Below are positions 11,931 through 47,699 of a DNA stretch of 47,699 nucleotides, piece after piece (the first letter of the stretch is position 1; every line of letters starts with the position of its first letter). The stretch spans positions 1 to 47,699 of the forward strand of contig JAJDCS010000035.1 of NCBI GenBank assembly GCA_029260715.1. Reading direction: 5' to 3'. A program made the translations under genes and the position numbers. A model generated the notes under the pieces. That model was not told the origin of the DNA and did no database searches. It worked only from the letters and a program-made list of their open reading frames with translations. The stretch comes from Phycisphaeraceae bacterium. GTDB taxonomy: Bacteria; Planctomycetota; Phycisphaerae; Phycisphaerales; Phycisphaeraceae.

Positions 11931-12299
11931 ATGTCAGGCGTGACCATCTACCACAACCCACGCTGCTCCAAGAGCCGCCAGACGCTGGCCCTGCTACGCG
12001 ACAGAGGCGTTGAGCCTAACGTTGTGGAGTACCTCAACGAGGCGCCCGACGCTGCGACGCTTGAGAAGATCATCAACATGTTGGGGATCGAGCCGATCGA
12101 TCTGATCCGCAAGAAAGAGAAGCTTTACAAGGAACTGGGCCTGGACAAAAAGCAGGGCGATCGGCGGGCGCTGATCAAGGCGATGGCGGCGCACCCGGCC
12201 CTGATCGAGCGGCCGATCGTGGTGAAGGGCAAGCGGGCACGCCTGGGGCGTCCGCCGGAAAAGGTGCTGGAGATTCTTTATAGCACGTTGCATTTATAA
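11931..12299 (+). CDS. ArsC-family arsenate reductase-like protein
   Basis: The 122-residue cytoplasmic protein has the ArsC fold motif YHNPRCSKSRQTL with the active cysteine, and later RPIVVKGKRARLGRPPEKVLEIL. Together these give the cysteine and arginines of glutaredoxin-dependent arsenate reductases (ArsC/YfgD group). The ATG at 11931 follows AAGGGG; an earlier TTG is less likely. Relatives end close to PPEKVLEIL, whereas this one continues with YSTLHL. Those six codons and the stop come from a MITE inserted at 12282: removing the element restores CTT TAA. No arsenic genes lie nearby, so the substrate could be something else, as for YfgD. Confidence 0.9.
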   Translation: MSGVTIYHNPRCSKSRQTLALLRDRGVEPNVVEYLNEAPDAATLEKIINMLGIEPIDLIRKKEKLYKELGLDKKQGDRRALIKAMAAHPALIERPIVVKGKRARLGRPPEKVLEILYSTLHL

Positions 12300-12405
12300 A
12301 TTTGATTGACTGGGTGGCACGGCTTGCTTGCAAGCCGTGAAATGCGGGTTCGCCATGTCAACGACCACCGAACATCCATCAAAGATAATCACGACAGGTG
12401 CTCTA
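12282..12405. repeat. MITE-like element inserted in the arsC-family stop codon
   Basis: The element runs from TAGCAC to GCTCTA and has the central CACGGCTTGC/GCAAGCCGTG hairpin. It is nearly identical to the copy at 44597-44721 (one base indel, one substitution). TA is present on both sides (12280-12281 and 12404-12405). Deleting one TA plus the element restores a TAA stop directly after the conserved ArsC end. Confidence 0.85.
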
Positions 12406-43292: not shown

Positions 43293-44471
43293 ATGCACCC
43301 CATCGCCGACATCCTCGAAGACCTACGCGCCGGCAAGATGATCGTCCTCATCGACGACGAAACACGAGAGAACGAGGGAGACCTCGTCTGCGCCGCACAG
43401 TCCATCACACCCCAAGCCGTCAACTTCATGGTACAGCAAGCCCGCGGCGTCTTGTGCCTCGCAATGGACGGCCACACCTGCGACCGCCTGGAACTATCCC
43501 CCCAGAGCCTGGTCAACACCGCCGTCCACGGAACCGCCTTCACCGTCAGCATCGACGCCGACCCACGCTTCGGTGTCACCACCGGCGTCAGCGCCTCCGA
43601 CCGCGCCGCCACCATACGCATCGCCATCGACGCCAACACCAGACCCACCGACCTAAAACGACCAGGACACATCAACCCCCTCCGCGCCCGCGACGGCGGC
43701 GTGCTCGTCAGAGCCGGGCAGACCGAAGGCTCCGTCGACCTCTGCCGCTTAGCCGGGCTCAAACCCGCCGCCGCCATTATCGAAGTCATGAACGACGACG
43801 GCTCCATGGCCAGACTGCCCGACCTCGAAACGCTCTGCGCCAAACACAAACTAAAAATGTGCTCCGTCGCCGATATCATCCACTACCGCCTCGAACGAGA
43901 GCACCTCGTCCAACGCGTCGACACCGTCCCGTTCCAAACTGAGCTGGGCGACTTCACGCTTATCGCCTACCGCAGCGCCGTGGATGCGCTGCCACATGTG
44001 GCGTTGGTTTGTGGTGACGCCGGCCGACTCGGCGACACCAACCAACCCATCCCCATCGCAGCCCCCGTGCTCGTGCGCATGCACAGCCAAAACCTCCTGG
44101 GCGACGTGTTCCAAGACGCCCAAGACCCCTCCGGCAAAACACTCCAAGCAGCCATGCGAATGATCCAGAAAGCCGGGCACGGCGCCATCGTCTACCTCCG
44201 TCACGAGGGCATGGGCTCCGGGCTGCTGCGTCGGCTACAAACCCTCCACCTGCCCCACGACCAAACCGGGCCCGGCGACCGACCCATGATCGCCGCTGCA
44301 GACCCAAGCTCGTCCACTCCCGCCCCAAAACGCGACTACGGCATCGGCTCGCAGATCCTACGCGACCTGGGCATCGCCAAGCTGCGACTGATCACCAACC
44401 ACCCCGTCCACCCCACCGGCCTAGCGGGCTTCGGCCTGGAGATTACAGAGTTTGTGCCTGTTGAGCTTTAA
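43293..44471 (+). CDS. RibBA-like protein with degenerate GTP cyclohydrolase II domain
   Basis: The 392-residue protein has an N-terminal DHBP synthase domain (about 1-200) with RENEGD (25-30) and RPGH (123-126). The second metal-ligand position is GQTE (142-145), where many DHBP synthases have GHTE. The C-terminal GTP cyclohydrolase II-like domain (about 210-392) has lost all three zinc cysteines: Asn267, Asp278 and Ser280 stand where SECL and RCDCG supply them. GCH II catalysis is therefore unlikely. This is the layout of the RibBX-type variants known in Proteobacteria. The first domain probably still makes DHBP for riboflavin. No other rib genes are here. An A-rich stretch precedes the ATG. 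Confidence 0.9.
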   Translation: MHPIADILEDLRAGKMIVLIDDETRENEGDLVCAAQSITPQAVNFMVQQARGVLCLAMDGHTCDRLELSPQSLVNTAVHGTAFTVSIDADPRFGVTTGVSASDRAATIRIAIDANTRPTDLKRPGHINPLRARDGGVLVRAGQTEGSVDLCRLAGLKPAAAIIEVMNDDGSMARLPDLETLCAKHKLKMCSVADIIHYRLEREHLVQRVDTVPFQTELGDFTLIAYRSAVDALPHVALVCGDAGRLGDTNQPIPIAAPVLVRMHSQNLLGDVFQDAQDPSGKTLQAAMRMIQKAGHGAIVYLRHEGMGSGLLRRLQTLHLPHDQTGPGDRPMIAAADPSSSTPAPKRDYGIGSQILRDLGIAKLRLITNHPVHPTGLAGFGLEITEFVPVEL

Positions 44472-44596
44472 AGGGTGTGGGTAAAAGGAAGGGGCTTAGG
44501 AAGCTAAGCGTTACCACGACGAGCCGTCCGCCTCAGGCGGATAAGAGAGCGGTGACCTTCCGCAATCCCCCCAACAAAACAACCCCGCCGCCTTTA
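44472..44596. other. intergenic end of ribBA and left arm of the old rRNA terminator
   Basis: No gene is seen. A hairpin TCCGCC-TCA-GGCGGA lies at about 44525-44541. AACAAAACAACCCCGCCGCC (44573-44592) is the left half of a terminator whose right half is at 44722-44736. Confidence 0.6.
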
Positions 44597-44737
44597 TAGC
44601 ACGTTGCATTTATAAATTTGATTGACTGGGTGGCACGGCTTGCTTGCAAGCCGTGAAATGCGGGTTCGCCATGTCAACGACCACCGAACATCCATCAAAG
44701 ATAATCACGCCAGGTGCTCTAGGTGCTACGGGGTTGA
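44573..44737 (-). terminator. rRNA-type terminator disrupted by a MITE
   Basis: The left arm (44580-44592) and right arm (44724-44735) match the arms of the intact terminator next to the real 5S. Between them is the MITE. Probably no longer effective, unless the element forms its own structure. Confidence 0.7.
44597..44721. repeat. MITE-like element inserted in a terminator loop
   Basis: The element runs from TAGCAC to GCTCTA and differs from the arsC copy at 12282-12405 by only one indel and one substitution. TA precedes it and also ends it. Removing one TA and the element joins CCTTTA to GGTGCTACGGGG, giving the loop and right arm of a hairpin that is otherwise the same as the intact rRNA terminator at 46751-46789. 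Confidence 0.88.
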
Positions 44738-44740
44738 AAA

Positions 44741-44857
44741 GCCGGCAATGATTTACTTTCCCACTGTCGCAGTATCATCGGCGCAGTGGGGCTTAACGGC
44801 CCAATTCAGGATGGGATCAGGTTTTCCGGGGGTGGCCCTACCGCTATGGTCACCGGC
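44741..44857 (-). pseudogene. degenerate 5S rRNA copy
   Basis: On the minus strand the sequence begins GCCGGTGACCATAGCGG and ends in AAATCATTGCCGGC, matching the whole length of the real 5S at 46794-46901. It has a nine-base insert (CCCCGGAAA), and the conserved CCCATCCCGAAC loop has become CCCATCCTGAATT; helix III is broken. It is therefore likely non-functional. It sits just before the MITE-split terminator. The real 5S is about 2 kb upstream in transcription order, with a RAYT gene and an orphan gene between. Confidence 0.85.
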
Positions 44858-44863
44858 GGGTGC

Positions 44864-44886
44864 CACTGACAACCCCGTTGTCAGTG
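44864..44886. repeat. REP palindrome downstream of the RAYT gene
   Basis: CACTGACAA pairs with TTGTCAGTG around a five-base loop, preceded by the head GGGTGC. It lies 18 bases past the RAYT stop and belongs to the same family as the other CACTGAC hairpins. Confidence 0.85.
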
Positions 44887-44904
44887 TCTTACCGGAATAA
44901 ACCA

Positions 44905-45447
44905 TCAAACCAACACTTGATCCATAACGATCGGAACGTCCCGCATCCCCGCGTACCAACCCGCACTGGACCACCGCCAATCAGTAGGCTTACCAACCAA
45001 CCCGCGCCGCACAGGGTTGGCATGGATGTACTCAACCATCGCGTACAGCGTTCCAGGCTCTGTGACGTTACGGTCGTACCCACCGCCAGGCTGCCAGAAA
45101 TGGTGCCGCCGCTTGCCCCCACTCAACGCACCTTCAAGCTTTCCCAAAAATGGTGACCCATCTTTTCTTAGCCGGTACAGAGCCTTACGCGCCACAGGCT
45201 GCTTCAGTGATTTGAGAATGCGAGCCATGTCATAATCACGATCCTTAGGCAGCAACAGAACGTGAACATGCTCGGGCATCACCACATATGCCAGCAGAGC
45301 CACGCTATGCGTTTCACGAACGTGACTTAACGCATCTATCAGCCATTGCCTCGTGCGGTCACGGCTCAATAGCGGCAGCCGCCTGTAACAGGAAAAAGTC
45401 AACTCATGCGCATGCCCCGGCGCATTAATCGCTCGGCGTGTCTTCAC
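44905..45447 (-). CDS. REP-associated tyrosine transposase (RAYT, Y1_Tnp family)
   Basis: The 180-residue protein has the HUH motif in MPEHVHVLLLP (His60, His62). The YIHANPVRRGLV segment (140-151), in which the YxxxN-P type residues include the catalytic tyrosine region, and the flanking WRWSS match RAYTs. These are domesticated IS200-like transposases that cut and move REP hairpins. The start is GTG. REP hairpins of one family lie on both sides (44864-44886, 45551-45574 and 45594-45617), giving a REPtron. It sits between two 5S copies inside an rRNA operon end, probably co-transcribed with it. Confidence 0.93.
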   Translation of the reverse strand: MKTRRAINAPGHAHELTFSCYRRLPLLSRDRTRQWLIDALSHVRETHSVALLAYVVMPEHVHVLLLPKDRDYDMARILKSLKQPVARKALYRLRKDGSPFLGKLEGALSGGKRRHHFWQPGGGYDRNVTEPGTLYAMVEYIHANPVRRGLVGKPTDWRWSSAGWYAGMRDVPIVMDQVLV

Positions 45448-45550
45448 AATAGCCCAACATCATACCGAATCCAGGCAATCAGCCACAAAATCAACGGAAA
45501 TCTCTGGAATAGAAGGGCCTATGCAAACAAAGCAGCAAGTCTACGTGTGC

Positions 45551-45574
45551 CACTGACAAACTCGTTTGTCAGTG
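45551..45574. repeat. REP palindrome, plus orientation
   Basis: Perfect ten-base arms CACTGACAAA/TTTGTCAGTG with loop CTCG, head GTGC. It is paired with an inverted copy 20 bases on. Confidence 0.9.
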
Positions 45575-45593
45575 AAGAAAGGCGACCACACCA

Positions 45594-45617
45594 CACTGAC
45601 AAGAAGACTTGTCAGTG
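45594..45617. repeat. REP palindrome, minus orientation
   Basis: Perfect ten-base arms CACTGACAAG/CTTGTCAGTG with loop AAGA; on the minus strand its head is GTGGCAC. It is inverted relative to the copy at 45551-45574, as in bacterial BIME pairs. Confidence 0.9.
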
Positions 45618-45632
45618 CCACACGCCGCCGTT

Positions 45633-46622
45633 TCATAATTGAGAGGACAAGTCATTCAGGAAGGAAGCATGCGATCGACAATCTTCAATATTTCTTAGGT
45701 TACTAGATGCATCGGATAAGAAACTTCGCGTACAGGACTTTCCAACCTTTACTCTTGCTAATGCCAATGCCAACAGGAACGAAAAGAGGGCCGTTGTGGA
45801 AAGTGACCGCAGGAAGTCAACTTCTTTGTGAAGCGGAACAGAACCATAGGATAGATATACAGAGTCTCTATAGTTCGCCTTTCCGCGGTATCGAAAGGCG
45901 CAATGCATCATGTTAAATTCGACACCTTGCATTCGCTTGTCTCTAACAGCCTTAGCTTCTGCTGACTTAAAGTCTAAAATGGTCTTGTTTTTTGACTTGA
46001 TATCGGATTTGATTATCTCTAGCTCTCTTTTTGCTGTGCCCTTGAGGTATCCAATTAGCATCTCTCTGGCAGTGATTCGTTCACCATCAAACTCTTTAAT
46101 AAGGAGTCTTGATGAGGTTCCTGGATAGTCGGGTAGTTCTACATCAAAATCCCCATTCTTGATCCAACGGGCCTTCATGTTGTACGGATGAGGGAGTCTG
46201 TTTCGGAGACAACTTCCGAACGAGCGGATCGACTTAGCGTGATACTCTTCCACTAGGACGTTCGAGGCAGCGAGCATTGACCTCAGGGCACCATAGTGAG
46301 CGTAGTACCACGCTATAACAGCCGAAGGCAGCGACCATGTTGGGCATCCGTCAGCAGCCCTTGAGCATAGATCAAGGGCAAACGTCAACGAAGAAAATAG
46401 CGGGCCAAAAACCTCTCCTGCTCCTAGGTGTTGCTGCGCACCCCGCATATTCTTCTTCAAAAGAGAGAGGCATGAATCAAACTGCTTCGTTGCGCTCTCA
46501 CCATTCTCCGCTTGCACTTCACAAGCAAGGGATAATGCCCAATGGACCGTGCTTGTTTGAGCATGCCTCGGACTCCAATCATTGTCATTCTTTTTGATCT
46601 CGTCGTATAGCCAGTGTGCCAT
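45633..46622 (-). CDS. orphan hypothetical protein, AT-richer than surroundings
   Basis: The 329-residue protein is not recognised. It is rich in Ser, Lys, Leu and aromatics and has no Cys-pair, signal peptide or clear membrane helix. A helical stretch TWSLPSAVIAWYYAHYGAL (about 95-113) and charged segments with KRELEIIKSDIKSKNK suggest an all-alpha soluble protein. Base composition is clearly lower in GC than the rest of the window, which is a sign of transfer. It lies between the rRNA terminator and the RAYT gene, with REPs before and after it. A defence or cargo role is possible but is only an inference from location. Confidence 0.65.
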   Translation of the reverse strand: MAHWLYDEIKKNDNDWSPRHAQTSTVHWALSLACEVQAENGESATKQFDSCLSLLKKNMRGAQQHLGAGEVFGPLFSSLTFALDLCSRAADGCPTWSLPSAVIAWYYAHYGALRSMLAASNVLVEEYHAKSIRSFGSCLRNRLPHPYNMKARWIKNGDFDVELPDYPGTSSRLLIKEFDGERITAREMLIGYLKGTAKRELEIIKSDIKSKNKTILDFKSAEAKAVRDKRMQGVEFNMMHCAFRYRGKANYRDSVYLSYGSVPLHKEVDFLRSLSTTALFSFLLALALARVKVGKSCTRSFLSDASSNLRNIEDCRSHASFLNDLSSQL

Positions 46623-46651
46623 GACAATTGCCCATCACCGACGCCGGGTGG

Positions 46652-46675
46652 CACTGACAAACTTGTTTGTCAGTG
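46652..46675. repeat. REP palindrome upstream of the orphan gene
   Basis: Perfect ten-base arms CACTGACAAA/TTTGTCAGTG with loop CTTG, head GGGTGG. It lies 30 bases before the orphan gene start. Confidence 0.9.
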
Positions 46676-46750
46676 TAGAACCATCACTGATCTACCTGCG
46701 CCAACAGGGTTACCGATTCTAACTTTTTATTCAAATCATACCCCCCTCAT

Positions 46751-46789
46751 AAACAAAACAACCCCGCAGCCTTTAGGGCTACGGGGTTG
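46751..46789 (-). terminator. rRNA operon terminator after the 5S gene
   Basis: On the minus strand AACCCCGTAGCC pairs with GGCTGCGGGGTT (one mismatch) around a CTAAA loop, followed by GTTTTGTTT. Confidence 0.88.
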
Positions 46790-46793
46790 AAAA

Positions 46794-46901
46794 GCCGGCG
46801 ATGACCTACTTTCCCACTGTTGCAGTATCATCGGCGCGACGGGCTTAACTGCTGAGTTCGGGATGGGATCAGGTGTGGCCCCGCCGCTATATTCACCGGC
46901 A
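46794..46901 (-). rRNA. rrf: 5S ribosomal RNA
   Basis: About 108 bases on the minus strand. The conserved core CCCATCCCGAACTCAGCAG and GTTAAGCCC, the GCGCCGATGATACTG segment and the pairing ends GCCGGTG/CGCCGGC are all intact. It is placed after the 23S in the usual order, with a long 390-base spacer. Ends are approximate by a base or two. Confidence 0.95.
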
Positions 46902-47001
46902 AGTACAGGCCCCGGCGTCAACCGGGCCCTGCCAAATATTCACTTGTACGTCCAGCGGACAAAAACCGCCAAACATGAATAACCAGGTAGCATTGGGGTG
47001 C

Positions 47002-47024
47002 CACTGGCGGCTCGTCCACCAGTG
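47002..47024. repeat. REP-like palindrome in the 23S-5S spacer
   Basis: Arms CACTGGCGG and CCACCAGTG (one mismatch), preceded by GGGGTGC; the arms resemble the hairpin at 6450-6467. Confidence 0.65.
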
Positions 47025-47162
47025 CCTACGCCGCAGGGTGAGCACCACCCTCTATCTTTTCTCTCCTCTCCCTTCTAGGGAGAGGACAAAGGTGAGGGTT
47101 AGACACTCGACGCTCACCGATTCATTTATATACGGCTGCTTCAGCACACCACAAACGGGTGC

Positions 47163-47187
47163 CACTACACGGCATAGCCGTGTAGTG
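47163..47187. repeat. REP-like palindrome in the 23S-5S spacer
   Basis: Perfect eleven-base arms CACTACACGGC/GCCGTGTAGTG with a three-base loop, head GGGTGC. Confidence 0.8.
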
Positions 47188-47289
47188 CGAATGACCCACA
47201 AATTCCATATGTAACACCAAAAATCAGAAGCCCTTGAAGAGCCTAAAACCACCAACCAAATCCCAAAGGATCGGCCGATGGTCGGTACG

Positions 47290-47699
<410 letters not shown>

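Follow-up and report, generated by a model that had tools for sequence, protein, structure and literature searches.

The DNA considered here, hereafter the window, is a stretch of 47,699 nucleotides (nt) that represents one entire contig (C29) of the 44-contig, 3.32-Mb genome of a Phycisphaeraceae bacterium. Close to one end, the window contains a gene coding for a RAYT, a tyrosine transposase associated with repetitive extragenic palindromes (REPs) and also named TnpAREP; together with its REPs and with a gene for a 329-amino acid (aa) protein, it is located between two copies of 5S rRNA, indicated as A and B. On the minus strand the order is 23S rRNA end, 5S A, terminator, REP, 329-aa gene, REPIN (an inverted REP doublet), RAYT, REP, 5S B and split terminator, followed by the convergent ribBA gene. 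Open reading frame (ORF), Rfam, repeat and profile scans found every part mapped in the original prediction at about the expected coordinates. Further REP-type hairpins lie outside the block limits that it had set, 44740-46903; they are at 47158, 46997 and 44629, the last one inside a miniature inverted-repeat transposable element (MITE). The features are as follows.

47286-47699, minus strand: 3′ end of 23S rRNA, the contig stopping inside the gene (Rfam RF02541, 424.7 bits)
47158-47187, plus strand: REP-type hairpin in the 23S-5S spacer, GGTGC tail and stem CACTACACGGC (hairpin scan)
46997-47024, plus strand: weaker REP-type hairpin in the 23S-5S spacer (hairpin scan, 8 pairs)
46793-46900, minus strand: 5S rRNA copy A, intact (Rfam RF00001, 84.6 bits)
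46759-46789, minus strand: intact intrinsic terminator A, following 5S A (13-pair stem and T-tract; −25.8 kcal/mol, z −3.7)
46647-46675 (hairpin 46652-46675), plus strand: REP singlet upstream of the 329-aa gene, tail to low coordinates (palindrome and hairpin scans)
45633-46622, minus strand: 329-aa gene, member of an uncharacterised accessory family, with 46.7% G+C (ORF, relatives, foreign composition)
45547-45630, no strand: REPIN, two inverted REPs with tails outward (inverted repeat pair; one long hairpin, −45.4 kcal/mol, z −4.9)
44905-45447, minus strand: RAYT/TnpAREP, 180 aa (NF047646, E 1.3e-28; PF01797, E 4.8e-6; alignment of motifs)
44859-44886, plus strand: REP singlet adjoining 5S B, tail away from the RAYT (palindrome and hairpin scans)
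44740-44857, minus strand: 5S copy B, decayed (37.8 bits; sequence comparison)
44722-44739, minus strand: 5′ half of terminator B (direct repeat)
44597-44719, plus strand: 123-bp MITE bordered by TA at each end, with an internal REP from another stem family, splitting terminator B (six copies read)
44573-44596, minus strand: 3′ half of terminator B, its upper end being the TA beside the MITE (direct repeat, 96% to terminator A over 24 nt)
43293-44471, plus strand: ribBA (DHBP synthase/GTP cyclohydrolase II), convergent neighbour (PF00926, PF00925)

RAYTs are HUH single-strand nucleases related to the IS200/IS605 transposases. The window RAYT scores 99.7 bits on NF047646 (cut-off 80) and has intact HVH and YIHANP motifs, representing the HUH motif and the catalytic tyrosine region, which align with the corresponding stretches of 16 relatives. 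Exact CACTGACAA..TTGTCAGTG palindromes occur at 44864, 45551, 45594 and 46652 (mean 0.00 in 100 shuffles), and four of the six exact CACTGACAA palindromes present in the 3.32 Mb of the genome are contained in these 2 kb. Tagged REPs that share a single stem family thus lie on both sides of the RAYT, with copies elsewhere in the genome, as is typical of a REPtron; the inverted pair, with its outward tails and single hairpin, corresponds to a REPIN, and the REP orientations in the block are mixed.

A scan for the tail GGTG(G/C), or GGTGS, directly before a CAC...GTG stem gave 26 hairpins of several stem families in 383.6 kb, with eight in the window, whereas 20 base-shuffled windows averaged 0.05; another 149 kb of the genome yielded 11. 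In 20 unselected stretches (L106-L118 and L122-L128; 380.9 kb) 17 hairpins were found, about 0.045 per kb; this set omits five stretches chosen for a RAYT/REP match and one chosen for 23S, and some of its members are on contigs that contain a RAYT, REP or 23S match. The 2.6 kb between 44.6 and 47.2 kb contain five scan hairpins, besides the two REPIN members, which have a variant tail; since this stretch was chosen for looking rich, the count is a description and not a test. Elsewhere in the genome, a RAYT fragment on contig C6 (113941-114093; about 8942 in L100) lies close to a REP of the CACACAGCA.. stem family and is possibly, with it, the remnant of a second REPtron; a second RAYT-like stretch, made up of two pieces (58% and 44% identity) and probably broken, is found at C38:79538-80060.

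RAYT matches were present in 29 of 61 genomes, own included. The nearest full-length RAYTs are those of G063, which belongs to another family (59% identity), and of G004 (56%); a tree groups them with the window RAYT with moderate support (92/89), which is not decisive. The GGTGS-tagged CACTGACAA stem was found in four of the 61 genomes, namely the one under study (4), G004 (25), G063 (18) and G010 (7), so that both other genomes having a full-length RAYT at least 55% identical are included. The RAYT of G063, located elsewhere in its genome, has the CACTGACAA stem on both sides with tails outward, and the same genome contains three pairs of tagged CACTGACAA stems about 90 bp apart. G004 has two imperfect CACTGACAA-type hairpins 2-3 kb away from its nearest RAYT, on the same contig (L105), and two additional RAYT matches (42% and 33%). 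In G010 the closest RAYT is divided into two pieces (43% and 51%), of which the second contains a stop, and a different contig holds another RAYT (31%). A GGTGS hairpin occurs at 10 of the 29 fetched RAYT loci, mostly with other stems, and in eight of these 10 the outermost hairpins flank the RAYT with tails outward. The sequences show a co-occurrence of this RAYT type with the CACTGACAA stem and, with the NF047646 match and the tagged flanking REPs, they bear out the predicted REPtron identity.

The original prediction was to be abandoned if a relative had the block elsewhere, under a promoter of its own and away from any 5S. This was found in part, as related RAYT-REP units occupy places without 5S in other genomes, and the rRNA position of the REPtron is therefore probably incidental. 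A general attraction of REPs to rRNA ends was rejected as a rule, because a single GGTGS hairpin was present in 29 relative 5S loci (79.4 kb); this one belongs to the CACGGCTTGC REP family and lies about 146 nt downstream of the 5S in G032, a member of another genus (L011, 1536-1562).

The 329-aa gene had been regarded as an orphan; this is not supported, since it has relatives on plasmids and viral-collection contigs as well as in a cassette-like array of Vibrio. The gene was found in none of 100 relatives. Among 392 genomes of the phylum, own excluded, one contains a clear relative (47%); four weaker matches (E 0.002-0.01) were set aside, three of them inside unrelated-looking reading frames (L070, L072 and L073) and the fourth being L071. 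A profile search matched three of the 392 genomes, of which G069 (E 8.5e-4) was set aside. Distant relatives occur in 35 plasmid records, where no match spans 80% of the query, and at 15 loci of the viral collection, several of which are near-duplicates; none was found in phage records. In these searches the spread of the family is patchy. Its RYRGKANYR motif is invariant in a seven-row alignment and shows one F for Y in a twelve-row alignment. Both the 329-aa gene and the RAYT have a foreign composition: the former has 46.7% G+C, compared with 61.7% in the window, and its G+C at third codon positions is 0.47, that of the RAYT 0.60, against 0.79-0.86 in four other window genes.

The 329-aa window protein has no match in Pfam, NCBIfam, PHROGs or PADLOC, and none by sequence in the PDB. 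Its predicted structure is mostly helical, at modest confidence (pLDDT 66.9); Foldseek gave no match at E ≤ 0.001 (best E 0.43), and VIA Z values up to 6.2 were with unrelated helical proteins. When seven family members were compared with known anti-phage families, none matched PADLOC and one had a Pfam match at E 0.19. A HEPN ribonuclease was also considered and rejected: the window protein has RNRLPH as its Rx4-6H motif and the same-phylum relative G436 has RTKMPH, but the motif is not conserved across the other family rows. Known defence genes were found by PADLOC and annotation near six of 12 family loci scanned, the sample of 20 neighbour proteins from these loci being biased and without a matched control. 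They include Pycsar genes (L082), SIR2 (L085), SoFic (L090), a restriction-like ATPase (L078) and a DUF4365 protein matching the PADLOC ‘Aga’ nuclease (L079); some are 2-4 kb from the family gene. In Vibrio europaeus, the cassette-like array is on plasmid pVEu (L076); it contains DUF3265 ORFs along with the relative of the 329-aa gene, and a BstA-like KilA-N protein and Hhe, annotated as an anti-phage protein, are encoded nearby. Among the first ten neighbours, mostly picked as defence-like, eight matched PADLOC at E ≤ 0.001, one of these eight weakly; among ten less selected ones three matched, two of which are methyltransferases. Most likely, the 329-aa protein belongs to the host anti-phage or accessory gene pool, in which it may have a role in defence.

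5S A and its terminator recur as a direct repeat in 5S B and terminator B, at a distance of about 2.05 kb, and the homology continues through the terminator. At 37.8 bits, 5S B stays below the Rfam gathering cut-off of 38 and does not reach the score of a functional 5S; the genome has one 5S over the cut-off and one 16S match. 5S B carries 10 inserted nt, it is altered at four sites that all 23 of the same-family rows keep unchanged (six rows from other families were omitted), and the hairpin preceding 5S A is missing before it. At positions 9-10 5S B keeps the family-consensus CC, where 5S A has AT. Since it is no closer to 5S A (85.2% identity) than to the 5S of two other genera (L013 and L025, 86.1%), 5S B is interpreted as a pseudogene, one that is old, decays fast or is foreign. 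In a survey whose filters were sensitive enough to detect the decayed copy, 48 of 61 genomes had 5S matches and three had two matches, which are close together only in the genome under study; in G034 and G072 they are far apart or on different contigs. All 29 fetched relative loci have one 5S within up to 1.5 kb, besides 12-nt chance matches. It had been proposed that the 5S-terminator unit was duplicated in an ancestor and that an insert of about 2 kb later came between the copies, and a search for tandem 5S copies without insert had been suggested. The duplication still offers the most economical history; the empty tandem, however, was found in none of the 47 other genomes with a 5S match.

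The splitting of terminator B is real; its cause is the 123-bp MITE, which is separate from the REP/RAYT block. Six copies of the MITE were read, including those at 44597-44719 and 12276-12405 of the window and those in L102, L109 and L116; they are 98.5-100% identical, so that the element was probably active recently, and every copy is bordered by TA at either end. In terminator A the corresponding position carries only one TA, and the halves of terminator B can still be fitted together, which indicates that the join is real and makes a misassembly at this point unlikely; whether TA is a duplicated target or the element end was judged from one uninterrupted counterpart, terminator A. Being short, non-coding, TA-flanked and present in several near-identical copies, the element resembles TA-target MITEs of the IS630/Tc1-mariner type, and differs from them by its internal REP, whose stem family is other than the RAYT-flanking CACTGACAA family.

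The interpretation that we favour, with fairly good confidence, is that of a low-copy REPtron that landed beside an old 5S-terminator duplication, where it probably arrived by horizontal transfer. The RAYT would recognise the GTGS-tagged CACTGACAA hairpins, nicking and rejoining them as single strands, and would have multiplied REPs mostly in its own vicinity, giving singlets and one REPIN. A foreign accessory gene, coding the 329-aa protein, would have come to lie between the REP and the REPIN, and the MITE would have broken terminator B later. Several observations weigh against this history. The first base of 5S B is within one nucleotide of the REP tail, which a tandem duplication followed by a chance insertion does not predict, and the folding z scores (−2.06 for 5S B, −1.29 for 5S A) do not mark 5S B as broken by energy alone. 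REP hairpins tightly bracket the 329-aa gene, 29 nt before its start codon and 15 nt after its stop, which could mean that the gene is cargo. The nearest RAYT of G004 is flanked by a different stem, in CATGGGCAA hairpins, and 19 of the 29 fetched RAYT loci gave no hairpin in the GGTGS scan, many of them being weak or partial RAYT matches. Finally, the comparison genomes include no member of the same genus, and neither an empty site nor the order of events was seen.

Among the alternatives, an unlikely but not negligible one is that 5S B derives from recombination with a second, divergent rRNA unit, or that it was imported with the block from another genus. Its identity to the 5S of two other genera, and the consensus CC that 5S A has lost, speak for such an origin, as does a second 23S end, on contig C13, whose 3′ part shows 93% identity to the window 23S over 292 nt. 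Against it, the changes of 5S B at sites invariant in relatives are those expected of a decaying pseudogene, the genome has a single 16S match and a single 5S over the cut-off, and the C13 overlap may be an assembly fault. Since the window ends within 23S and the C13 end is divergent, either the rRNA part was imperfectly assembled or two divergent 23S genes exist in this genome. Misbinning of the contig was rejected because its REP families, the MITE and the tetranucleotide profile (r 0.992) agree with the rest of the genome.

The 23S gene at the end of C13 (L121, 5663-9180) is about 700 nt longer than the model part covered, and it contains a 156-aa ORF (7684-8154 in L121), presumably a LAGLIDADG homing endonuclease from its motif. 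The only 16S match (C28:79898-81410) is on a contig other than those of both 23S fragments. No 23S end was found on C28, and the 5.6 kb that were read ahead of the 23S start on C13 contain no 16S; the rRNA genes of this genome therefore appear to be unlinked; a 2020 study by Brewer is said to have found unlinked rRNA genes widespread. Six REP-type hairpins are present in 19 kb around the 16S gene (L102), and two in the 23S-5S spacer of the window (46900-47286), which measures 404 nt from the last 23S motif, compared with 213-442 nt in relatives (measurable in 10 of 21).

It is improbable that the position under an rRNA promoter was selected, with read-through from 23S-5S driving the 329-aa gene and the RAYT. 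Both genes are on the rRNA strand, and a crude scan of 44450-47290 found no sigma-70-like promoter, where 2.1 were expected by chance. Nevertheless, the strong expression by read-through that had been anticipated is not supported by the sequence: it is doubtful because terminator A is intact, and its stem and T-tract would end the rRNA transcript before the block. Related RAYT-REP units located elsewhere in other genomes also speak against such selection, and the rRNA position of the block is likely to have no functional role.

Still less credible is a composite element, in which the RAYT acts on the outer REPs and moves the 329-aa gene as cargo, the 5S-terminator copies being integration repeats, either att-like or produced by homologous crossover of a circle carrying a 5S-terminator piece. 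The bracketing of the gene by the RAYT's own REP family, the position between two repeats, the foreign composition of both genes and the similarity of 5S B to the 5S of other genera would fit it. However, a scan of 23 family loci, which represent 22 distinct places and include near-duplicates, gave no GGTGS hairpin, no locus was seen with the 329-aa gene beside another RAYT, and the REP orientations are mixed. That such cargo belongs to an unrecognised single-gene anti-phage family, with the 5S-terminator unit as a landing site, is the least probable proposal.

A low-copy REPtron beside an old duplication thus stays the preferred explanation, and the locus is best described as a REPtron of an ordinary, known kind at an unusual site; as a by-product, it has brought out an uncharacterised family of accessory genes. 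It adds a RAYT-REP pair for planctomycetes, in which the REP stem tracks the RAYT type across genera and families, and it may offer a natural case of local REP spread following arrival. The part worth following is the 329-aa family, a candidate for phage resistance, whose members are carried by plasmids, viral-collection contigs and a cassette-like array, partly beside known defence genes. If the RAYT did move a passenger gene, this would bear on the question of why RAYTs are kept. By titles, the literature searched links RAYTs neither with cargo nor with an rRNA operon, nor TnpAREP with defence islands; PMC3390384 mentions both terms.

Compared with known systems, the 329-aa family resembles the accessory and defence-island genes of plasmids, prophages and cassettes in its patchiness, foreign composition and, at half of the scanned loci, defence neighbours, while the window protein differs from known defence-island genes in having no library or PDB sequence match. 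The REPtron shares with RAYTs having GT[AG]G REPs the Y1 HUH gene, the flanking tagged palindromes, the REPIN and the same stem elsewhere in the genome; it differs from the usual ones by the few REPs of its stem (6 exact), the GTGG or GTGC tag and the site between two 5S copies. For such systems, GT[AG]G feet and one specific REP family per tnpAREP are described in PMC6006769, and REP cleavage and rejoining by RAYT relatives are reported in that paper and in PMC8266576. PMC8266576 also deals with Marinomonas, where REPs clustered near their RAYT are read as a recent arrival followed by local multiplication. As in the Marinomonas REPtrons Ma and Mb, the REPs of the window are concentrated at their own tnpAREP; here, however, the host is a planctomycete and an accessory gene lies between the REPs.

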